Source: Pseudomonas syringae (lineage in GTDB: Bacteria; Pseudomonadota; Gammaproteobacteria; Pseudomonadales; Pseudomonadaceae). From it: DNA of 64,000 nucleotides. Positions 31,212 to 43,716 of this stretch are shown here, piece by piece. The stretch is taken from the NCBI RefSeq assembly GCF_001698815.1, contig NZ_LGSI01000020.1:71483-135482 (forward strand). Direction: 5' to 3'. Within the stretch, counting starts at the first letter, position 1. Every line of letters starts with the position of its first letter. The notes under the pieces are model-generated. The model was given only the letters and a program-made list of their open reading frames with translations, ran no database searches and was not told the origin of the DNA. A program made the translations under genes and the position numbers.

Positions 31212-33539
31212 GTGATTCGCCTGTTTTCTTCCTCGCTGGGCCTGTTGCGACTGCTCCTGGTGATGCTGTGCGCGGCCACACTTGTATTTCTGTGGGGGTT
31301 GTTTTTCCAGCAGAAAGCCACTTCCCATGACGAAGCGCTGGCAGCCAAGGCGGCCGAACATCTGAACCTGGCTACGATAGCTGCAGAAAACCTGCGTCAA
31401 CTGGTCGACCGCGCCCAGGCCATCGGCAAGGTTGCGCGAAGTGACATCGAAGACCGGGACCAACGCAGTTGGGGTTTGGTGCGCATGCTTGCCGAAGACC
31501 CGGTGCTCAAGCGCATGAGCCTGTACAGCCGCGATGGGCGTCTGCTTTCCGGCACTCATGTTGACGAGCCACAGCAACTGCCCGGGGATTGGCTGGCGCA
31601 ATTGCAGCACCACATTGATCGCAACGGCCTCAAACCCTTCCTGCCGGGGTTGCCCGACTCACAAAACGAATCCGCGCCGCCGAACTGGCGCCTGCCTTTC
31701 CTGTTGCCGTTGGCCGATCCTTCGATGCGGGAGCTCGACAGCATCCTTTTGGTGCAGCTGGATATCGGTTACCTGGCGGCACTCTTCGAACACATTGATC
31801 TGGGCCGCAGCGGCATGATGCGTTTGCTCGATAACGATGGCCATGAGCGGTTGCGGCTGACCAGCAGCGGCGTTGTGGTTTCCGGCGTGGCACTCAACCC
31901 GGAACTGTCGAGCAGTGGCGTTGAGTCTGGGGAAATCACCCAATACTCCGCTACCGCGCAATTCCAGAGCCTGTATCGCCGCACGTCACAGCGCGGCTTC
32001 AGTGTGATCGTCAGTCAACAGCGCGACGAAATCCTTGCCCCATCGCAACTCACCTATGAGCGGCAGCTCTGGCTGAATCTCTGTATGACGCTGTTCATTC
32101 TGGGCAGCCTGATCTGGACCCTGCGCGTGTTACACCGGCGCCAGGAAGCATTTGCGGAGTTGGAACAGGCCCAGCAAATCAATCAGGACTTGATAAGCCG
32201 GCTGGAGGAAGAGCACCGGCGCAGCAGTCATGCCGCAGCCACGGACCACTTGAGCGGTCTGCACAACCGGCGTCAGTTCATGGAGGTTGCGACACAGGTT
32301 TTGACGCAGCAGCGTGGCAAGCGGCAGTTGCTGGCCATTCTGTTCATCGATATGGACCGCTTCAAATCGATCAATGACTCCTTGGGACACCGGACCGGTG
32401 ATTTGCTGTTGCAGGCGATTGCCGGACGCATTAGTCGCTTGCTGGAGCCATGTGACGCAGCGGCGCGCTTCGGTGGCGACGAATTTGTCGTGCTGCTGGC
32501 CGGAGAACGAAGTGAGGAGCAGATCGACGCCTGGGCTCGAATGCTGGTGGACAAGCTTTCAGCGATTTACTCCCTCGAAGAGCATGAGCTCAGCACCAGT
32601 CCCAGTGTTGGCGTCAGCATTTGCCCGCGTGACGGCCAGGACGTCGAAGGCATGATCCGCTGCGCTGATGCGGCGATGTATTCGGCAAAAAGAGCGGGGC
32701 GCGGACAATATCGGTTTTTCGACCCGTCGCTCAACGTCGCGGACATCAAGGAGTTCACGCTGGAGCAGGCCTTTGCCGGGGCGCTGAGCGAGCGGCAGTT
32801 TCTGCTTCACTACCAGCCCCAGATCCGCCTGGACTCCATGCTCGTGGAAAGCTACGAAGCATTGGTGCGCTGGCAGCACCCTGACTTCGGATTGCTCTAT
32901 CCGGATCAATTTATCTCCCTGGCTGAGCGCAGCGGTTTCATCATTGCGCTCGGCTGGGAAGTGCTGCGCCTGGCGTGTGAGGATCTGGCGCGCTGGCAGG
33001 AACAGGGCAATCGCGCACGACTGGCAATCAATATCTCGGCGATACAGCTGCGCCAGGCCGACTTCAGCCGAAGGCTCCTCAGCGAACTTGACCACTACGA
33101 CATCGAGCCGCAGCAACTGGAGCTGGAAATTACCGAGACCTCGGTGCTGGATCATGAAGGGCAGGGCATCGAGCACCTTAAATCCCTGCGCGCCGCAGGT
33201 CTGGCTATCAGCCTGGACGACTTCGGTCAGGGTTACGCAGGTTTCGCCCACCTGCAATCGCTGCCGTTGACCAAGTTGAAGATCGATCGCGCGGTGATTG
33301 CGCCGTTGTCCAACAGCCCTGATGACAACCCCATCGTCGCCTCTACCATCATTCTGGCCAAACGCCTCGGGCTGGAGGTGGTCGCCGAAGGCGTGGAAAC
33401 CCGCGAGCAGGTCATTTGCCTGAAGCTGGCGGGCTGCGACATGGTTCAGGGTTATCACTTCAGTCGACCGCTGTCGTCGGCCCAGCTTCATGAATATCTC
33501 CCCTTTACCAACGCGATGGAAAAAGCATGCGCGCAGTAA
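31212..33539 (+). CDS. Membrane GGDEF-EAL protein (diguanylate cyclase/phosphodiesterase)
   Basis: 775 residues from a GTG start with GGAAGA upstream. A membrane helix covers about residues 10-30, a periplasmic sensor of about 240 residues follows, and a second helix lies near 282-302. The GGDEF domain has an intact RFGGDEFVVLL near 420; DHLSGLHNRRQFM opens it. The EAL domain has EALVRWQHP near 547, EITETSVLDH and DDFGQGYAGFAHL, so catalytic residues look intact. It can therefore make or break cyclic di-GMP. Its last codons overlap the start of a PhnD-like binding protein, suggesting a periplasmic ligand controls it. Confidence 0.93.
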   Translation: MIRLFSSSLGLLRLLLVMLCAATLVFLWGLFFQQKATSHDEALAAKAAEHLNLATIAAENLRQLVDRAQAIGKVARSDIEDRDQRSWGLVRMLAEDPVLKRMSLYSRDGRLLSGTHVDEPQQLPGDWLAQLQHHIDRNGLKPFLPGLPDSQNESAPPNWRLPFLLPLADPSMRELDSILLVQLDIGYLAALFEHIDLGRSGMMRLLDNDGHERLRLTSSGVVVSGVALNPELSSSGVESGEITQYSATAQFQSLYRRTSQRGFSVIVSQQRDEILAPSQLTYERQLWLNLCMTLFILGSLIWTLRVLHRRQEAFAELEQAQQINQDLISRLEEEHRRSSHAAATDHLSGLHNRRQFMEVATQVLTQQRGKRQLLAILFIDMDRFKSINDSLGHRTGDLLLQAIAGRISRLLEPCDAAARFGGDEFVVLLAGERSEEQIDAWARMLVDKLSAIYSLEEHELSTSPSVGVSICPRDGQDVEGMIRCADAAMYSAKRAGRGQYRFFDPSLNVADIKEFTLEQAFAGALSERQFLLHYQPQIRLDSMLVESYEALVRWQHPDFGLLYPDQFISLAERSGFIIALGWEVLRLACEDLARWQEQGNRARLAINISAIQLRQADFSRRLLSELDHYDIEPQQLELEITETSVLDHEGQGIEHLKSLRAAGLAISLDDFGQGYAGFAHLQSLPLTKLKIDRAVIAPLSNSPDDNPIVASTIILAKRLGLEVVAEGVETREQVICLKLAGCDMVQGYHFSRPLSSAQLHEYLPFTNAMEKACAQ

Positions 33540-34408
33540 TATTTTTGACTGTTCTGCTGATGACGATGCTGTCCAGCACCCTGGCTCATGCCGAGTGCAG
33601 TCAACAGAGTCTGCGCTTCGCAATCATCCCGAAGACCAACAAGACTGTAGAAGTGCTGGTGCTTGAGTATCAGCCGCTGCTGACGCGCCTGAGCACTGCG
33701 CTGGGAATTCCGGTGGAAATAGTCCCGGCCTCTTCCTATGAAAGCGTGATCGATGCAATTGTCTCCGGTGGCGTCGACATTGCCTGGCTTGGACCGGCGT
33801 CCTACATCCTCGCCCGCCAGCGCGACCCCCGTATTGAACCGTTCGCCAGCCTGACCATAAGCCCCGGCTATTTCACCCCGGCCGGGCATCACTATCAGTC
33901 ACTCTTGCTGAGTCGTCGCCAGGACGCCACTAGCCTTGAGGCATTGCGCGGCACTCAGGTCGCACTGAGCGATCCGGCGAGCACGTCAGGCAGTGTCGTG
34001 CCCAATGCCGAATTTTCGGCGCAAGCGGGGTTGCCGCTGACGCAGTTTTTCAGCTCTGTGGTGTATTCCGGTTCCCACGACAAGTCTCTGGATGCGCTCC
34101 TGGATGGCAGGGTGGACGCGGCATTTGTGGCAAGCGTGCGGGTTGACGCGTACCTGAACAGCGGGCGGATCACGCGTGACACGTTCAACGTGCTGTGGCG
34201 CTCGACTCCGATCTACTACGATCCTTATGTGTTCGGCGGTAGCCTGTGTCCATTGCTGAAAGAACGCATTCGCGCCGCGATGTTGAACGATCAGCAGGGC
34301 CTTGCCTCATTTCTGAAGGCTCAGGACGCTTCCGGTATTGTCCCGGCCAGCCATGCGGAATACGAGCCACTGCTGCAGCTGATGGGCAAAAAGCCAGTTG
34401 TGCCATGA
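33527..34408 (+). CDS. PhnD-like periplasmic substrate-binding protein
   Basis: 293 residues. The signal peptide ends at LAHA|EC near residue 22. SYESVIDAIVSGGVDIAWLGPASYILARQ and later SDPASTSGSVVPNAEF (blocks) match the phosphate/phosphonate PhnD/PtxB group. The gene overlaps the GGDEF-EAL gene by 13 bp and no ABC permease or ATPase is nearby. It is therefore more likely a periplasmic sensor subunit for the cyclic-di-GMP enzyme than a transport protein. The bound ligand cannot be predicted. Confidence 0.88.
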   Translation: MRAVIFLTVLLMTMLSSTLAHAECSQQSLRFAIIPKTNKTVEVLVLEYQPLLTRLSTALGIPVEIVPASSYESVIDAIVSGGVDIAWLGPASYILARQRDPRIEPFASLTISPGYFTPAGHHYQSLLLSRRQDATSLEALRGTQVALSDPASTSGSVVPNAEFSAQAGLPLTQFFSSVVYSGSHDKSLDALLDGRVDAAFVASVRVDAYLNSGRITRDTFNVLWRSTPIYYDPYVFGGSLCPLLKERIRAAMLNDQQGLASFLKAQDASGIVPASHAEYEPLLQLMGKKPVVP

Positions 34409-34522
34409 GTTCAGTCGTTCGCAGCGATCGGCTATCAGGCGATTGCCGACCACCTTTTTGTTTAGGAGTCTCTGCAGGTTTCACGATAATCTTTGCCACA
34501 CGTTCACTTGACCCGTTGACCG

Positions 34523-35719
34523 ATGACCAGATCTGAATTTTCTGTTGATATTGAAGCCGTCGGCTCTATTGAAGCCGTTCCGGTCATTTTGAGCATGGTC
34601 AAACACCTGACCGGGATGCGTTTCGCCGCTGTCGCCAGGGTCACTGAAAAAAACTGGGTGGCGTGTGCTGTCGATGATTCAATCAATTTTGGTTTGAAGC
34701 CCGGTGGCGAGCTGGTGCTGGAGTCGACCATCTGTCATGAAATTCGGCAACACCAAAGGCCTGTGATCTTCGGACACGCCAGCGCGCATCCCGTTTTTTC
34801 GTCACACCACACCCCCAAGCTGTATGGACTGGAAAGTTATATTTCCATCCCGATCATCAAGGCCAATGGCGACTTCTTCGGTACGTTATGTGCGATCGAT
34901 TCGGTACCGGCGAGTCTTGAAGAACCGGCTATCGTCAAGACCCTGACGCTGTTCGCCCAATTGATTGCGATGAGTCTCGATACCCAGAGCAACCTTGAGG
35001 CAACCCAGGCGGCGCTGGTCAACGCCAATGAAACGGGAATGCTGCGAGACCAGTTCATTGCTGTCCTGGGGCATGACTTGCGTACGCCCTTGAGTGCAAT
35101 CCGGATGAGCGCGGACCTGTTGGAAAGCAAAACAACGGAAAAGCGATCACTCAATCTGATTTCCGCCATCCGCAACAGCTCGGTACGCATGGGCGTCCTG
35201 ATCGAGAATGTCCTGGATTTCGCCCGTGGGCGGATGGGTGGCGGCATTCCCGTCAAGCGCCAACTGGTCGACGATCTGGGACATACGCTCAAGTTGACGC
35301 TGGATGAAGTACAAGCCTCGCACCCGCTTGCAATTCTGGATCATTCTCTGGACCTGCCGACGGGTGTCTACTGCGATGCGCTGCGTATCACGCAGCTCCT
35401 GTCAAACCTTCTGGGCAACGCAGTGACTCACGGGGCAAACGGGACACCTGTCGAGGTTCGGGCCTATTCGGAAAATGACGAGATCGTCCTGTCCGTGATC
35501 AATCAAGGGCCGCCGATTCCTACTCAACTGATGCCGTTGCTGTTCGAGCCGTTTACCCGTTCGGAAGCAGGACAGCGCGGGGAGGGGCTGGGCCTGGGGC
35601 TTTACATCGCCTCGCAGATTGTCAGCGCACACGGTGGCAGTCTCACCGTGACGTCGACTGTGGAGGCGGGAACAGCTTTTATTGCCCGACTCCCGGCGAA
35701 GATCAAATGGGTGGTTTAA
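34523..35719 (+). CDS. Soluble GAF-domain sensor histidine kinase
   Basis: 398 residues with no membrane segment. A GAF domain covers about residues 15-160 (ESTICHEIRQHQRPVIFGHA, LYGLESYISIPII). The phosphoacceptor helix has GHDLRTPLSAI near 188. ATP-binding motifs LSNLLGNAVTHG near 295 and GEGLGLGLYIASQIV near 352 complete a HisKA-HATPase core. No response regulator lies beside it on this strand. It follows the PhnD-like gene after 114 bp, and its ribosome-binding site is weak. It may relay a redox or small-molecule signal to a distant regulator. Confidence 0.9.
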   Translation: MTRSEFSVDIEAVGSIEAVPVILSMVKHLTGMRFAAVARVTEKNWVACAVDDSINFGLKPGGELVLESTICHEIRQHQRPVIFGHASAHPVFSSHHTPKLYGLESYISIPIIKANGDFFGTLCAIDSVPASLEEPAIVKTLTLFAQLIAMSLDTQSNLEATQAALVNANETGMLRDQFIAVLGHDLRTPLSAIRMSADLLESKTTEKRSLNLISAIRNSSVRMGVLIENVLDFARGRMGGGIPVKRQLVDDLGHTLKLTLDEVQASHPLAILDHSLDLPTGVYCDALRITQLLSNLLGNAVTHGANGTPVEVRAYSENDEIVLSVINQGPPIPTQLMPLLFEPFTRSEAGQRGEGLGLGLYIASQIVSAHGGSLTVTSTVEAGTAFIARLPAKIKWVV

Positions 35720-35743: not shown

Positions 35744-37261
35744 CTATTTCCCCAGTGAATTCACATTCATCGAGCGCACCGCCCATTGCTCCGCCGTTTG
35801 CTGATCCACCGGCAGGGAGAAACGGAACGTCGCGCCGCGTCCGGGCACGTCGACCAACTGGATATCGCGGCCGTGCAGTTGCAGGATGCGATGCACAATG
35901 CGCAACCCCAGGCCACCATCGCGCCGTGAACCGCCGATGTTGAACGGCCGCAGGAACAGGCCTTCGCGCAGTTCAGCAGCAATGCCGGGGCCGGTGTCGC
36001 TGATCGTGACTTCTATTAAGGCGCCTTGCGGGCGCAGGCTGAGCTCGATTTCCCCACCTTCGGGCGTGTGGCGCAAGGCGTTGTCGAACAGGTTGGTCAG
36101 CACGCGCTCGATCAGCCCCAGGTCAGCGCAGGCGGCAGACACGTTGGGGGCGAAGGACGCCTTGAGTTCGACGCGCCGCGCCTCGGCCGTCAGTTCGAAT
36201 TTCTGGAAGATGTCCTGCACCAGATCAGTCAGCGGGAAACGCTCCAGCACCGGCTGCACGAAGCCGTGCTCCAGCCGCACCAGTTCCAGCAGCGATTGCG
36301 CCAGCCCGCCGACCTTGCGGCTCTGATCCAGCGCGATGCCCAGATAGCGGCGGCGATCAGCGGGGGACAATGTGGCGTCCTTGAGCGACAAGGTCTCCAG
36401 ATAGCCATGCAGTGAAGCCAGCGGCGTGCGCAAGTCGTGGGAGATGTTCGCAACCAATTCGCGGCGTTCCTGATCCTGGCGGGTCAACGAATTCCATTGA
36501 GCACTGAGGCGTTCCTGCATTTGCCGGAACGCGGCGTCGAGCATGGCAATTTCATCGTGGCTGGCTGCGTGTTCGGCGGGTGCTGTTGCCGGCGGAGCGA
36601 CTGGAGCGCCGTCGATATCGAACTGGCTGACGGTTTCGGTGAGGCGCCGCAACGGTCGGGTGATCAGGGCGAAAGCCGTAAGGCCTGCGATCAGGCACAA
36701 CAGCGCGACCAGTCCGATGGACAGCAGTGCGGTGTTGAGCGCCGCGCTGGTGGCACCGCGCTCGGCCAGACGATCGTGTTCTTCACTGAGCAGCACCACG
36801 TAGAGATAGCCAGCCGGCTTGCCATCCACGGTCAGCGGCGCCGCGCTGAACACCTTCCGCGCCTGGTCACTGCGCGGATCGTCACCGAGTATTGGCAAGG
36901 CATCGCCTTGAAGCAAACGATGGACGGGCGCCAGATCAATCCTGTCCCGACGTATGCGACCCTCGGGCGAAGCGCTGCCGACGACCCGCCCGTCAGTGTC
37001 GAGCAGATAGACTTCGACGCTGGGATTGACCAGCATCAGCTGATTGAACAGGTTGCGGACCGCGCCCGGCATCATGCCTTTGCTGTCCATCAGCACCGTA
37101 TCCCGGGCAATGTGTTGCGCCAGATCTCGCGACAGGCCTTGTACGACTTCCAGTTCATGCATCCGGTTGGCGCGCACCTGCATCCACGCTGACGTGCCGC
37201 AGCACACCAGCAGCAACACGGCGAACACCAACGACAGACGCTTGGTCAGGGTCAGCCTCAT
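35744..37261 (-). CDS. Membrane sensor histidine kinase of the Msr-linked two-component system
   Basis: 505 residues from the ATG at 37259-37261, which overlaps the TGA of the response regulator. Membrane helices at about residues 8-28 and 185-207 flank a periplasmic domain of about 155 residues. HAMP, HisKA (NISHDLRTPLASLHGYL near 285) and HATPase (LTNLFDNALRHTPEGG, then DTGPGI and GGLGLRIVHRI) follow. With the regulator it forms an EnvZ/OmpR-type pair, divergent from the exported methionine-sulfoxide repair genes. A role in sensing envelope oxidative or chlorine stress is inferred from that neighbourhood. Confidence 0.9.
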   Translation of the reverse strand: MRLTLTKRLSLVFAVLLLVCCGTSAWMQVRANRMHELEVVQGLSRDLAQHIARDTVLMDSKGMMPGAVRNLFNQLMLVNPSVEVYLLDTDGRVVGSASPEGRIRRDRIDLAPVHRLLQGDALPILGDDPRSDQARKVFSAAPLTVDGKPAGYLYVVLLSEEHDRLAERGATSAALNTALLSIGLVALLCLIAGLTAFALITRPLRRLTETVSQFDIDGAPVAPPATAPAEHAASHDEIAMLDAAFRQMQERLSAQWNSLTRQDQERRELVANISHDLRTPLASLHGYLETLSLKDATLSPADRRRYLGIALDQSRKVGGLAQSLLELVRLEHGFVQPVLERFPLTDLVQDIFQKFELTAEARRVELKASFAPNVSAACADLGLIERVLTNLFDNALRHTPEGGEIELSLRPQGALIEVTISDTGPGIAAELREGLFLRPFNIGGSRRDGGLGLRIVHRILQLHGRDIQLVDVPGRGATFRFSLPVDQQTAEQWAVRSMNVNSLGK

Positions 37262-37974
37262 GGCTGTTCCTCCGCGGCGGCAAATTTGTAGCCTCGGCCC
37301 CATACCGTAAGGATGCGCGCCGGTTGTGCCGGATCAGCTTCGATCTTCGCCCGCAGGCGATTGATGTGGGTATTGACCGTGTGTTCGTAGCCTTCGTGGC
37401 TGTAACCCCATACCGCGTTGAGCAGGTCCATGCGCGAGAACACCTTGCCGGGTTGGCGGGCGAAATAATACAACAGGTCGAACTCCCGAGGCGTGAGTTC
37501 CAGGCGACGACCATCGAGGGACACATCACGGGTGATCGGATCGATATTGAGCCCGCCGGTGATCAGGCTGCCGGCGTCCATCTTCAGGTTGCGAGCCATG
37601 GCGTCCACGCGCCTGAGCAGCGCTTTGACCCGCGCCACGAGTTCGAGCATGGAAAAGGGTTTGGCCAGGTAATCGTCGGCGCCCAGCTCCAGACCGAGAA
37701 TCCGATGCAGCTCGCTGGACCGCGCACTGGTGATGATGATCGGCGTGTAACGGGCCATGGCGCGGGCGCGGCGGCAGATTTCCAGGCCATCGACACCGGG
37801 CAGCATCAGGTCGAGGATCAGCGCGTCCCAATTGCCCTGCTGCAGCAGACGCATGCCTTCATCGCCATCGGCGCAGTGCACGACTTCAAACTGCTCATCG
37901 CGTAGATGCAGGCAAATAAGGTCGGCGATATGCACGTCGTCCTCGACCACGAGAACCCGTTTGGTCTGTTCCAT
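37258..37974 (-). CDS. OmpR/PhoB-family response regulator
   Basis: 238 residues from the ATG at 37972-37974; a TTG three codons earlier is less likely, since GAAGGA sits about 9 bp before the ATG. The receiver has VVEDD, the phosphoacceptor in LILDLMLPGVDG near 53 and KPF near 104. The winged-helix domain ends with YEHTVNTHINRLRAKIE and VWGRGYKF. It is upstream of and overlaps its kinase gene, and is divergent from the msrB-dipZ-msrA operon, its likely target. Confidence 0.93.
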   Translation of the reverse strand: MEQTKRVLVVEDDVHIADLICLHLRDEQFEVVHCADGDEGMRLLQQGNWDALILDLMLPGVDGLEICRRARAMARYTPIIITSARSSELHRILGLELGADDYLAKPFSMLELVARVKALLRRVDAMARNLKMDAGSLITGGLNIDPITRDVSLDGRRLELTPREFDLLYYFARQPGKVFSRMDLLNAVWGYSHEGYEHTVNTHINRLRAKIEADPAQPARILTVWGRGYKFAAAEEQP

Positions 37975-38125
37975 TCCGTTCAATCCTTCAACGCGATGGC
38001 GCCATTGTGCGGGTTTTCCGCGGCCCGAGTTATCACGAATTGTTTAACTTCACGTGAGGATTTGGCGATCACTGCGCGCCTAGGCTGTGTTGCATGCCAT
38101 CCACCTGGATGTTTCGGAGAAGATC

Positions 38126-38635
38126 ATGTTTTCACGGCGGCAGTTTCTGATAGTGAGCGGCGGGGCAGGCCTTGCAGCATTGGCGCTCGGCGTGTCGAGC
38201 CGGTTCCCGATGCTGATCGATGACGCCAGCGCAGCGCAGGTGTTCGAGGTAACGCACAGCGATGCGCAATGGCGCGCCTTGCTCAGCGCCGAGCAATATC
38301 AGGTGCTGCGCGAACAGGACACCGAGCGACCTTACAGCAGCCCGCTGAGCGACGAGCATCGTGACGGTGTTTTTGTCTGCGCCGGTTGCGATCTGCCGTT
38401 GTTTTCCTCGGCGACCAAATTCGACAGCCACACTGGTTGGCCGAGTTTCTGGCAGTCATTGGACAAGGCTGTGGCGGTTCAGACTGACCGGTCTTTCGGG
38501 GTATCACGCGATGAAGTGCATTGCTTGCGCTGCGGCGGCCATCTGGGCCATGTCTTCAGCGACGGCCCCAAACCCACCGGCTTGCGCTATTGCATGAACG
38601 GCGTGGCGATGAACTTCAAACCCCAGGCGGCATGA
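38126..38635 (+). CDS. msrB: Tat-exported methionine-R-sulfoxide reductase B
   Basis: 169 residues. The N-terminus MFSRRQFLIVSGGAGLAAL is a twin-arginine signal, unusual for MsrB. Zinc cysteines occur as CAGC near 94 and CLRC near 142; the catalytic Cys is in GLRYCMNGVAMNF. HTGWPSFW and GHVFSDGPKPTG are MsrB family blocks. CGGAGAAG precedes the ATG. The enzyme reduces R-methionine sulfoxide in exported proteins. It is the first gene of an operon with a DipZ-like electron carrier and an exported MsrA. Confidence 0.93.
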   Translation: MFSRRQFLIVSGGAGLAALALGVSSRFPMLIDDASAAQVFEVTHSDAQWRALLSAEQYQVLREQDTERPYSSPLSDEHRDGVFVCAGCDLPLFSSATKFDSHTGWPSFWQSLDKAVAVQTDRSFGVSRDEVHCLRCGGHLGHVFSDGPKPTGLRYCMNGVAMNFKPQAA

Positions 38636-38678
38636 CCGCTGATTTATTACTTTCAATTATTTGATGCAGGTCGAACTT

Positions 38679-40454
38679 ATGTGGCTTCTGATCCTTGCTT
38701 ATCTTGGCGGCGTGCTGACGATTGTCAGCCCATGCATTTTGCCGGTACTGCCGTTTGTCTTCGCCCGCACCGGGCAGCCGTTCATGAAAAGTGGCTTGCC
38801 GCTGTTGGCCGGTATGGCGCTGACCTTCGCTCTCGTTGCCACGCTGGCAGCGGTAGGCGGCGGTTGGGTGGTGCAGGTCAATCAATACGGGCGCTGGCTG
38901 GCGTTGCTGTTCGTCGCCTTGTTCGGCCTGACGCTGGTGTTGCCAAAGCTGGCCGAGCGTCTGACCCGGCCACTGGTGGCGGCCGGTGGTCGACTGTCGG
39001 AAGCCGCGGGCAATGATCCCCGGCCGCGTCCCGGTGCGTCGTTCCTGATTGGCGTCGCTACCGGCTTGCTCTGGGCACCTTGCGCCGGACCGATTCTGGG
39101 CCTGGTGCTGACCGGCGCGGCGCTGCAAGGCGCGAGTATCGGTACAACCCTGTTGTTGCTGGCTTACGCCGCAGGTGCCTGCACCTCACTCGCGGTTGCG
39201 TTGCTGCTGGGCGGCAAGGTTTTCGCGGCGATGAAGCGTTCCATCGGCGCTGGCGAATGGGTAAGGCGAGGCTTGGGCGTCGCCATGCTGGCTGGCGTGG
39301 CAGCGATTGCACTGGGGCTGGATACCGGAATTCTGGCCAAGGTATCGACGGCCTCAACCGGCGGTATCGAACAGGCGCTGGTTGGCCGGCTGGCCGGTAA
39401 ATCGCCGAGCAGCAGCGGGGCGATGATGGCGCAGAACCCAGCTAGCGGGAGCATGATGAAAGCCGCCAATCAGGCGTCGGACAGCTTGCCGATCGAGGGC
39501 AATCTGCCGTCGCTGGATGGCGCGGTACAGTGGCTCAACTCGCCACCACTGACTGCCCAGGCTTTGAAAGGCAAAGTCGTGCTGGTGGATTTCTGGACTT
39601 ACTCCTGCATCAACTGCCTGCGTTCGCTGCCTTATGTAAAAGCCTGGGCCGAGAAGTACCGCGATCAGGGTTTGGTGGTGATTGGCGTGCATGCGCCGGA
39701 ATTTGCCTTCGAACGCACTATCGGCAATGTCACCAAGGCGATGAAAGACCTGGGTATCAATTACCCGGTGGCCGTCGATAACGACTACACGATCTGGCGT
39801 GCTTTCAATAACCAGTACTGGCCGGCGCACTATTTCGCCGACGCTCAGGGGCGTATTCGTTACCACCATTTTGGCGAAGGCGATTACGCTGAGTCGGAAC
39901 GGGTCATCCAGCAATTGCTGCGTGAAGCGGGTGCCGCCAAGGTCGCCGACGGCCTGATCACTACCAACGCTCAGGGCGTGCAACAGGCGGCGGACATGAA
40001 CGACGTGCAATCCCCGGAAACCTACGTCGGTTACCAGCGCGCGGAGCAGTTCGTCCCTGCCAAAGGCCTGTTGCCGGACGCCGTGAAGACCTACAGCCCG
40101 GCGCCGCAACTGGCGCTCAATGACTGGAGTCTGGAAGGCAAATGGACCGTCGGCTCCGAGCAGGCCACTGCCGACGCCTCGGCGAGTCGCATTGTTTACC
40201 GCTTTCATGCGCGGGACCTGCATCTGGTACTCGGGCCTGGAGCCGATGGCAAACCGGTGCGCTTCAAGGTGCTGATCGACGGCAAAGCGCCCGGCGACGC
40301 CCACGGTAGCGACGTAGCCCCTGACGGCAGCGGCAGCGTGACAGAACAACGCTTGTATCAGCTGGTGCGCCAGCCCGGCAGCGTGCAGGACCGAACCTTC
40401 AGCATCGAATTTCTCGATCCGGGCGTGTCGGCGTATGCGTTTACTTTCGGTTGA
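38679..40454 (+). CDS. DipZ-like thiol-disulfide transmembrane carrier (CcdA + thioredoxin + C-terminal domain)
   Basis: 591 residues from ATG 38679 (AGG 8 bp upstream; an ATG five codons earlier is possible). The membrane part has SPCILPVLPFVFAR near 17 and LLWAPCAGPILG near 133, the paired Cys of CcdA/DsbD proteins. A periplasmic thioredoxin domain has FWTYSCINCLRSLPYV near 310. The C-terminal 150 residues, starting at ETYVGYQRAEQF, form the extra domain of DipZ. Such proteins carry electrons from cytosolic thioredoxin to the periplasm. Lying between msrB and msrA, it most likely regenerates both reductases. Confidence 0.9.
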   Translation: MWLLILAYLGGVLTIVSPCILPVLPFVFARTGQPFMKSGLPLLAGMALTFALVATLAAVGGGWVVQVNQYGRWLALLFVALFGLTLVLPKLAERLTRPLVAAGGRLSEAAGNDPRPRPGASFLIGVATGLLWAPCAGPILGLVLTGAALQGASIGTTLLLLAYAAGACTSLAVALLLGGKVFAAMKRSIGAGEWVRRGLGVAMLAGVAAIALGLDTGILAKVSTASTGGIEQALVGRLAGKSPSSSGAMMAQNPASGSMMKAANQASDSLPIEGNLPSLDGAVQWLNSPPLTAQALKGKVVLVDFWTYSCINCLRSLPYVKAWAEKYRDQGLVVIGVHAPEFAFERTIGNVTKAMKDLGINYPVAVDNDYTIWRAFNNQYWPAHYFADAQGRIRYHHFGEGDYAESERVIQQLLREAGAAKVADGLITTNAQGVQQAADMNDVQSPETYVGYQRAEQFVPAKGLLPDAVKTYSPAPQLALNDWSLEGKWTVGSEQATADASASRIVYRFHARDLHLVLGPGADGKPVRFKVLIDGKAPGDAHGSDVAPDGSGSVTEQRLYQLVRQPGSVQDRTFSIEFLDPGVSAYAFTFG

Positions 40455-40484
40455 TCATCATTCATTGATTCAGGAGTCGCGCTC

Positions 40485-41189
40485 ATGAAAACCCCATTTA
40501 CGTTGCGCCGGATTGTGTTGCAACTGGCTGCAGCTGGCTTTATCGGTCAATGCTCCGTAGCCGCCTTTGCCGGTGAAGAGGGGGTGCTCCTGGCCCCGCC
40601 AGCCGTTGACGAAATGACCCAGGCCCACAGTGAAACGGCAGTGTTTGCCGGTGGCTGCTTCTGGGGCGTGCAGGGCGTGTTCGAGCATGTCAGAGGCGTC
40701 AAGCAAGCCGTTTCCGGTTATGCCGGAGGGGCTGCCGACACCGCCCAATACGAGCGGGTCAGCGAGGGCGATACCGGCCATGCGGAATCCGTCGAAGTCA
40801 CCTTCGATCCTGCTCAAGTTAGCTATGGCACTTTGCTGCAAATCTACTTTTCGGTGGCCCACAACCCAACCGAGCTCAATCGCCAGGGCCCGGATCGCGG
40901 CACCCAATATCGCTCGGCACTGTTCACCAAAAGCAACGAACAGCAGCGTGTTGCCCAGGCTTACATCGCTCAGCTGGACGCCGCGCATTCGTTCAACAAG
41001 CCCATTGTGACCAAGCTGGAATCGTTCAATGGCTTCTACCCGGCCGAGGAGGAACATCAGGATTTCCTGACCCGCCATCCCATGCATCCGTACATCGTGA
41101 TTAACGATCTACCCAAAGTGGCGCAGTTGAAGCAGTTGTATCCTGATCGTTATCAGGATGAGCCCGTGCTGGTGAAGGCGGCAATGTAG
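40485..41189 (+). CDS. msrA: Exported methionine-S-sulfoxide reductase A
   Basis: 234 residues. A Sec signal ends at AAFA|GEE near residue 29. The catalytic FAGGCFWGVQGVFE motif is near 52, and VSGYAGG and EHQDFLTRHP complete the family pattern. It reduces the S-epimer of methionine sulfoxide, complementing MsrB. It begins 30 bp after the dipZ-like gene with CAGGAG upstream. Periplasmic MsrA is uncommon in Gammaproteobacteria, which usually rely on cytosolic MsrA or on MsrPQ. Confidence 0.93.
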   Translation: MKTPFTLRRIVLQLAAAGFIGQCSVAAFAGEEGVLLAPPAVDEMTQAHSETAVFAGGCFWGVQGVFEHVRGVKQAVSGYAGGAADTAQYERVSEGDTGHAESVEVTFDPAQVSYGTLLQIYFSVAHNPTELNRQGPDRGTQYRSALFTKSNEQQRVAQAYIAQLDAAHSFNKPIVTKLESFNGFYPAEEEHQDFLTRHPMHPYIVINDLPKVAQLKQLYPDRYQDEPVLVKAAM

Positions 41190-42957: not shown

Positions 42958-43041
42958 TCAATTCGACAGTCAGACGTGTTTTGTCCCGTTTATCGACAGG
43001 GATGGGCAGGGCCGCATTTGAATAATAATGAAGAGGGATAT

Positions 43042-43716
43042 ATGCGAATACTTGTTATCGAAGATCACAAGGATATTCTCGCCAATATAATCGAATATTT
43101 CACGCTTAAAGGGTGTGAAGTTGTCGGCGCCCTGGACGGTTTGGCGGGACTGCATCTGGCAGTAACAGGCAACTACGATGCCATCATACTGGACCTTATG
43201 CTGCCCGGCATGGATGGTAATCTGGTGTGTAAAAACCTGCGAGAAAATACCAGGCAACATGTTCCCATCCTGATGCTTACAGCCCGGGATGAATTGAGTG
43301 ATCGGCTGGCCGGGTTCAAAGTGGGTGCGGATGACTACATCGTCAAGCCGTTCGCTCTATCCGAACTATTTGCTCGCGTCGAAGCGGTCGCCCGCCGCTC
43401 AACGGGGTTAAGTAATCGCATGCTTCAAGTCCACGATTTGACCTACGATCTGGACTCTCTCGAAGTCTGTCGTGGCGGCAAATTGCTCAAGCTGAACCCG
43501 ACCAATCTGGTATTTCTCGAATTGCTGATGCGCAAAAGTCCGTTGGTGGTAAAGCGAAAGGAACTTGAAGAAGCAATCTGGGGTACCAATACTCCGGATA
43601 CCGATAGTTTGCGCAGTAATATCTACCTGTTGCGCAAGGCGATCGATAAGTCTTTTGACACGCCGCTGCTGCACACCCATCACGGCGTGGGCTACAAGTT
43701 GTACTGCCCTTACTGA
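43042..43716 (+). CDS. Orphan OmpR-family response regulator
   Basis: 224 residues from ATG 43042, with GAAGAGGG upstream. The receiver has VIEDHKDI, LDLMLPGMDG near 54 (phosphoacceptor) and VKPFALSEL near 104. The C-terminal winged helix has TDSLRSNIYLLRKAID and HHGVGYKL. No histidine kinase gene adjoins it. The gene is lighter in GC than its neighbours, hinting at acquisition. Nearby kinase genes at 34.5 and 35.7 kb are possible but unproven partners. Confidence 0.9.
   Translation: MRILVIEDHKDILANIIEYFTLKGCEVVGALDGLAGLHLAVTGNYDAIILDLMLPGMDGNLVCKNLRENTRQHVPILMLTARDELSDRLAGFKVGADDYIVKPFALSELFARVEAVARRSTGLSNRMLQVHDLTYDLDSLEVCRGGKLLKLNPTNLVFLELLMRKSPLVVKRKELEEAIWGTNTPDTDSLRSNIYLLRKAIDKSFDTPLLHTHHGVGYKLYCPY

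Follow-up and report, generated by a model that had tools for sequence, protein, structure and literature searches.

The window analysed here, a 64,000-nucleotide stretch of a 6.6-Mb Pseudomonas syringae genome (G000, contig C43), carries at 35744–41189 a two-component system and, diverging from it, an operon for two exported methionine sulfoxide reductases (Msr), MsrB and MsrA, and a DipZ-type thiol carrier. A first-pass annotation, made from the letters alone, had named these five genes, and Pfam and NCBIfam models confirm each of them where it had been placed; start codons were refined from the sequence. On the reverse strand lie a sensor histidine kinase of 505 amino acids (35744–37261), with HAMP, HisKA and HATPase_c domains by Pfam and a periplasmic PDC/PAS-like sensor domain, and an OmpR-type response regulator (37258–37974; Response_reg and Trans_reg_C by Pfam), which we place in the OrhK and OrhR groups, respectively. 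The ATG of the kinase overlaps the stop codon of the regulator, which is assigned the ATG at 37974, the TTG at 37983 being open as well. The space between the divergent units holds a conserved 40-bp block (38029–38068, forward strand) with the inverted repeat TCACG-N15-CGTGA, a proposed OrhR-type operator.

The operon runs on the forward strand and contains thiol enzymes alone, the molybdopterin catalytic subunit of MsrPQ not being among its genes. MsrB (38126–38635; Pfam SelR, 163 bits) starts at the ATG at 38126 and opens with the twin-arginine leader MFSRRQFL (MFSRRQFLIVSGGAG); it has four presumed zinc cysteines and a catalytic cysteine, and lacks a resolving one. DipZ (38664–40454) combines a CcdA/DsbD membrane domain, a thioredoxin domain with the motif CINC and a Thioredoxin_10 domain; its start may be ATG 38664 or 38679, with TTG 38661 open too, and it ends at 40454. 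The membrane domain scores slightly below the Pfam threshold (DsbD_TM, 25.6 bits against 27.1), Redoxin/AhpC-TSA is matched and Thioredoxin_10 reaches 174 bits. DipZ membership follows from the three domains in a single chain, two membrane cysteines and a CxxC, and the soluble part matches the solved Mycobacterium tuberculosis DipZ (2hyx, 4.6e-64). MsrA (40485–41189; Pfam PMSR, 193 bits) is predicted to be exported and has a single cysteine in its mature part, in GCFWG. Both reductases exceed the thresholds of their family models (MsrA, TIGR00401, 170.4 bits, cut-off 108.1; MsrB, TIGR00357, 164.5 bits, cut-off 113.05).

This arrangement is conserved far beyond chance. Our genus sample comprised 149 Pseudomonas genomes, of which 91 have a DipZ match reaching at least E 1e-20, and 44 places with long-form DipZ outside the window were fetched (L033–L076, one split and one truncated). 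All five genes occur together in 38 of the 44, and in almost every module dipZ is flanked by msrB and msrA. Synteny was the check on the link between the two-component system and the operon: kinase and regulator are neighbours in 40 of the 44 loci, which together with the shared operator rules out the pair as a chance neighbour. Among the exceptions, L055 starts at a contig end, L062 has no msrB and L065–L067 have dipZ alone. Two modules are decaying with regulator, kinase and operator retained; msrB is lost from L062 (G120), and in L076 (G089) dipZ is truncated and msrB only a remnant. Wider DipZ searches at E 1e-60 found the protein in 7 of 274 genomes of the class and 38 of 398 of the phylum, and 36 loci of other genera were fetched; places of the phylum search left out were those of G082 (second), G473, G553, G573, G683, G701, G703 and G731 and the third of G659. 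Seven of the 36 hold all five genes (L111, L112, L120, L125–L127, L131), four have msrB, dipZ and msrA without an OrhR-group regulator (L130, L132, L134, L137), five have dipZ with a single msr gene and 19 have no other recognised module gene, whilst L114 carries regulator, kinase, msrB and dipZ on the same strand. Named records with all five genes come from Burkholderia multivorans, Cupriavidus necator, Pseudomonas costantinii (L215) and a metagenome-assembled genome of Stenotrophomonas maltophilia.

Roughly one in three genomes of the Pseudomonas sample (~51 of 149) carries a short CcdA-thioredoxin paralog of DipZ, of some 405 amino acids, and ten of the 11 short-paralog loci fetched (L077–L085, L090, L092) have a different OmpR-type regulator nearby, 36–39% identical to that of the window. 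Adjoining the module in the window, at 31212–35719 (forward strand), is a row of three genes for a GGDEF-EAL-like protein, a substrate-binding protein of PhnD type and a histidine kinase with a GAF domain; the Pseudomonas loci fetched do not retain them beside the module.

The window regulator is 59.7% identical over 97% to OrhR of Escherichia coli CFT073 (L208) and the kinase 42.2% identical over 97% to OrhK. In a midpoint-rooted tree of 61 regulators, some of whose flagged outgroup branches are long, a group of 28 rows with support 99/98 unites the window regulator, OrhR, a copy on an E. coli plasmid, and regulators from Rahnella, Burkholderia, Cupriavidus and other modules; it is separate from the regulators of the short DipZ paralog and from the second regulator of the window (43039–43716). 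By sequence, the window kinase and regulator are members of the OrhK/OrhR group. Of the named loci that were fetched, the one from Pseudomonas sp. GM48 has the most similar regulator (93%). Two other assignments were rejected, that of a CopR-type or heavy-metal regulator (162 bits, cut-off 279) and that of an HprR-type regulator (152 bits, cut-off 353). HprSR of E. coli likewise places periplasmic methionine sulfoxide repair under two-component control, through MsrPQ, but differs in the family of its regulator and in using a molybdenum enzyme.

OrhK/OrhR of CFT073 is reported to activate c3566–c3568 upon H2O2, and these genes encode a YedZ/YedY-like pair and a methionine-rich peptide (PMC8550376). 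The same report describes an electrophoretic mobility shift assay in which OrhR bound a 260-nt promoter fragment, for which the authors proposed the inverted repeat TCACA-N15-TGTGA. The two systems share an orthologous regulator and kinase, a divergent layout, the operator and periplasmic methionine sulfoxide repair; the divergent layout beside reductase genes is found in the window as well, where control itself is predicted from sequence. They differ in their targets, since that of CFT073 is co-transcribed with haemolysin genes and that of the window would be msrB-dipZ-msrA (PMC8550376). The E. coli records that match the regulator number 368, of which one was fetched along with one plasmid record. 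The latter, a conjugative IncF plasmid from a river-water E. coli, carries yedZ-yedY-like genes and a small hypothetical gene together with a pair resembling OrhKR (L209:3195-7195), all within a few kb of IS26 and erm(B); 94 plasmid records, including 53 from Escherichia, contain this regulator.

All 46 divergent loci, 39 from Pseudomonas and seven from elsewhere, have the 40-bp block between regulator and msrB, and 26 to 39 of the 40 positions agree with the seed. In the window the arms of the repeat stand at 38033–38057, arranged as in the repeat proposed for OrhR, and the block of CFT073 can be aligned with that of the window over its whole length. A 30-bp pattern, corresponding to 38033–38062 in the window, was searched against a control of the same pattern reversed. 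The window genome holds a single site at up to three mismatches, and none for the reversed pattern. Across the genus sample, up to two mismatches gave 72 sites in 51 of the 149 genomes and none for the control. All but one of these (71 of 72) precede msrB, dipZ, msrA or yedZ-yedY/MxKDx units, and the remaining one is cut by a contig end. Beside a regulator, 39 sites belong to msrB-dipZ, five to msrB-msrA, one to dipZ-msrA, one to a decayed module, four to an MxKDx peptide gene with msrA or msrB (yedZY also being present in three) and one to a contig end. Away from it, 16 precede an unlinked yedZ-yedY-MxKDx operon, three a lone dipZ and two a lone msrB. The 51 regulator-adjacent sites are partly inherent in the construction of the pattern, which does not hold for the 21 unlinked ones. 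In three genomes (G022, G050, G085) the module is split across three loci with an operator at each piece, that of msrB in G022 having three mismatches. In L114 there are two copies, one upstream of msrB (two mismatches) and one upstream of the regulator on the opposite strand (three mismatches).

The MxKDx protein scores above the TIGR02953 cut-off in 23 of the 149 genomes and below it in three more; TIGR02953 has no match in the window genome. Each of the 23 is also one of the 51 genomes with an operator (3e-13 on the assumption of independent genomes, which does not hold), and in 20 the operator is immediately upstream of the MxKDx gene. Because the operator is shared in this way, two-component control of msrB-dipZ-msrA in the window is very likely.

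Export of MsrB by a twin-arginine leader, as first annotated, is borne out by a twin arginine within the first 15 residues of all 40 Pseudomonas MsrBs and of 13 of the 15 other MsrB leaders. Four of the leaders from other genera (L120, L125–L127) continue from the twin arginine to LGAC, as in a lipoprotein exported by the twin-arginine translocation (Tat) pathway. MsrA had been described as a Sec substrate; its predicted export stands, but the window leader contains LRR and RR occurs within the first 20 residues in 24 of 42 Pseudomonas MsrA leaders, and therefore the route is not fixed as Sec. The cysteines of both enzymes follow a strict pattern. Every one of the 40 Pseudomonas MsrBs has five cysteines after the leader, which fits four zinc ligands and the catalytic residue. 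The resolving cysteine of MsrB is the one that precedes GWPS; this position is Thr in all 55 MsrBs (two sets, 43 and 12), some of those from other genera having an extra cysteine elsewhere, and Cys in the other MsrB of the window genome (GCGWPSF). Likewise, no cysteine follows the catalytic one in any of 55 MsrAs, and both other MsrAs of the window genome carry a C-terminal cysteine. The exported MsrB and MsrA thus fall outside the two-Cys (resolving-Cys) subclass. In DipZ, each of two membrane positions has a single Cys in 71 of 74 rows (three gaps), and the cysteines of CINC are kept in 74 and 73 of 74 rows. As gene content, the annotated relay of a CcdA-thioredoxin protein with exported MsrB and MsrA is upheld by the Pfam domains and these cysteines.

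We propose, with a probability of roughly three in four, that the locus forms the thiol branch of a regulon of the OrhK/OrhR type, serving to protect the methionines of the cell envelope. The kinase would sense an envelope oxidant through its periplasmic PDC-like domain and phosphorylate the regulator, which would bind the operator between the divergent units, activating msrB-dipZ-msrA in P. syringae and probably also its own unit. MsrB, exported by Tat, would reduce the R epimer of methionine sulfoxide and MsrA the S epimer, each enzyme forming a sulfenic acid on its sole catalytic cysteine. Thioredoxins are able to reduce one-Cys Msr enzymes directly. Since neither exported enzyme has a resolving cysteine, DipZ probably reduces both sulfenic acids directly through the thioredoxin domain, and the simplest chain would run from cytosolic thioredoxin via the CcdA domain and CINC to MsrA or MsrB. 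In many relatives the OrhR-type operator would add a YedZ-YedY-like molybdenum pair and the methionine-rich MxKDx peptide as a sacrificial sink.

Several observations weigh against this proposal. A regulator at least 54% identical to that of the window occurs in 11 named loci (L214–L222, L224, L226); msr or yedZY genes adjoin it in six, and five (L216, L217, L219, L220, L222) have no recognised adjacent msr or yedZY gene. The second operator arm of L111 is not CGTGA, the MxKDx gene of G120 has only a four-mismatch operator copy and those of G118 and G078 have none. Five Pseudomonas operons have lost dipZ (L203–L207), and G026 has msrB and msrA yet gives no DipZ match at E 1e-20.

The last two points also favour an alternative in which DipZ is a general periplasmic reductant and other carriers, partners of DsbD or the second CcdA-thioredoxin protein, normally reduce the exported enzymes. 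The genomes of all five dipZ-less operons match the short paralog (in G037 as two pieces). Against this stand the place of dipZ between msrB and msrA and the operator of its own that it has where the module is split, and we consider this alternative unlikely.

The signal is the subject of a second alternative, that the system mainly senses a metal such as copper or some other envelope stress, with methionine repair as one downstream response. A model of the kinase ectodomain built from nine sequences (predicted local distance difference test 76, predicted template modelling score 0.75) resembles PDC/PAS sensors, namely those of sporulation kinase D (Z 9.0), CitA (Z 9.0; 117 residues, root mean square deviation 3.4) and DctB (Z 8.7). 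Foldseek gave no match below 0.001 for this ectodomain, and its profile found nothing below E 0.13 among solved structures. The modelled ectodomain has a common PDC/PAS-like arrangement and names no ligand, the sensor domain of CusS is also listed by Foldseek, and the nearest broad class is that of OmpR-type regulators belonging to metal systems. However, the genes that follow the operator in the 149 genomes are confined to those for methionine sulfoxide repair and for the MxKDx peptide, none of the 71 evaluable sites having a metal gene, the window regulator scores below the cut-off of the heavy-metal model, and OrhK/OrhR is reported to act on H2O2 (PMC8550376). Primary sensing of a metal or other stress is decidedly improbable on this evidence. 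Two conserved residues of the kinase, Met76 in the ectodomain (63 of 63 rows) and Cys20 in the first membrane helix (62 of 63 rows), are possible redox-sensing residues.

The first-pass annotation had seen thiol chemistry in place of a molybdenum route. The window genome carries canonical msrP (487 bits, cut-off 207) and msrQ (299 bits, cut-off 130) at L146:510-2269, so the thiol route is an addition and not a replacement; moreover, the OrhR-type operator of relatives precedes yedZ-yedY-MxKDx operons. The genome also has a YedZ-YedY-like pair beside a CopR/SilR-type regulator (L147:935-3963; 336 bits, cut-off 279), at which neither an OrhR operator nor an MxKDx gene was found; extension of the regulon to this pair was rejected, the best match having nine mismatches in 30 against 7–10 in mononucleotide-shuffled 4-kb stretches. 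The two-component system, annotated as dedicated, is indeed divergent from the operon and conserved with it, but is a member of the known OrhK/OrhR group and not private. Loading of the MsrB zinc site in the cytosol, as first annotated, and sensing of hypochlorite are conjectural. That thiol repair replaces MsrPQ under a private sensor is hardly credible: the operon is complete and neither a second operator nor an MxKDx gene was found in the window genome, but msrPQ and the YedZ-YedY-like pair contradict replacement and the regulator group is common to E. coli, Rahnella and Burkholderia.

The thiol-branch proposal may be extended, tentatively and with chances a little short of even, to OrhK/OrhR as a widespread switch of an envelope methionine shield with two fuels. 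In the thiol branch, one-Cys MsrA and MsrB would be reduced at the sulfenic acid by DipZ fed from the cytosol; in the molybdenum branch, YedZY would be fed from the membrane. Both would recharge the sacrificial methionine-rich peptide, and different lineages would have retained different subsets. Where mrpX and msrA share an operon without yedZY (G022), a thiol enzyme would recharge the peptide, and the haemolysin link of uropathogenic E. coli would reflect the capture, at a late stage, of a repair switch that is older.

Every part of this system has a known relative. In Neisseria PilB, a CcdA/DsbD and thioredoxin-fold electron route leads to an extracytoplasmic Msr, there a fused enzyme with intramolecular disulfides. 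Streptococcus pneumoniae CcdA-Etrx-SpMsrAB2 also passes cytosolic electrons through CcdA/DsbD and a thioredoxin fold to an extracytoplasmic Msr; SpMsrAB2 is fused and uses intramolecular disulfide chemistry, whereas the window MsrA and MsrB lack a resolving cysteine (PMC3914529). An operon of Streptococcus gordonii joins a two-component system, CcdA1, a thioredoxin-like lipoprotein and MsrAB, with the relay shown biochemically, and so shares with the window all these functions in a single unit; it differs in being Gram-positive, with a fused MsrAB and separate CcdA and thioredoxin, and the likeness is one of gene content (PMC7034828). The hypochlorite scavengers YedYZ-MrpX and BcrXQP have counterparts in the MxKDx peptide and YedZY-like pair under the OrhR-type operator of relatives, but are regulated by extracytoplasmic function sigma/anti-sigma pairs, and the window genome has no MxKDx match (PMC4623255, PMC8315932). 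Exported msrA and msrB were predicted in two perchlorate islands (PMC4623255). Among the open-licence literature matches listed, none describes the window operon or OrhKR in Pseudomonas, nor the combination, an operator common to thiol, molybdenum and peptide genes, or exported MsrA and MsrB enzymes that are both strictly one-Cys.

The regulator, described from a pathogenicity island of E. coli, thus gains a broad home in environmental bacteria, together with a precise and testable operator. Three known defences, thiol Msr, molybdenum Msr and a methionine-rich scavenger, would share a single switch. Natural differences in gene content between genomes lend themselves to testing which enzyme recharges the peptide and which reductant serves one-Cys Msr enzymes where the compartment is oxidising.

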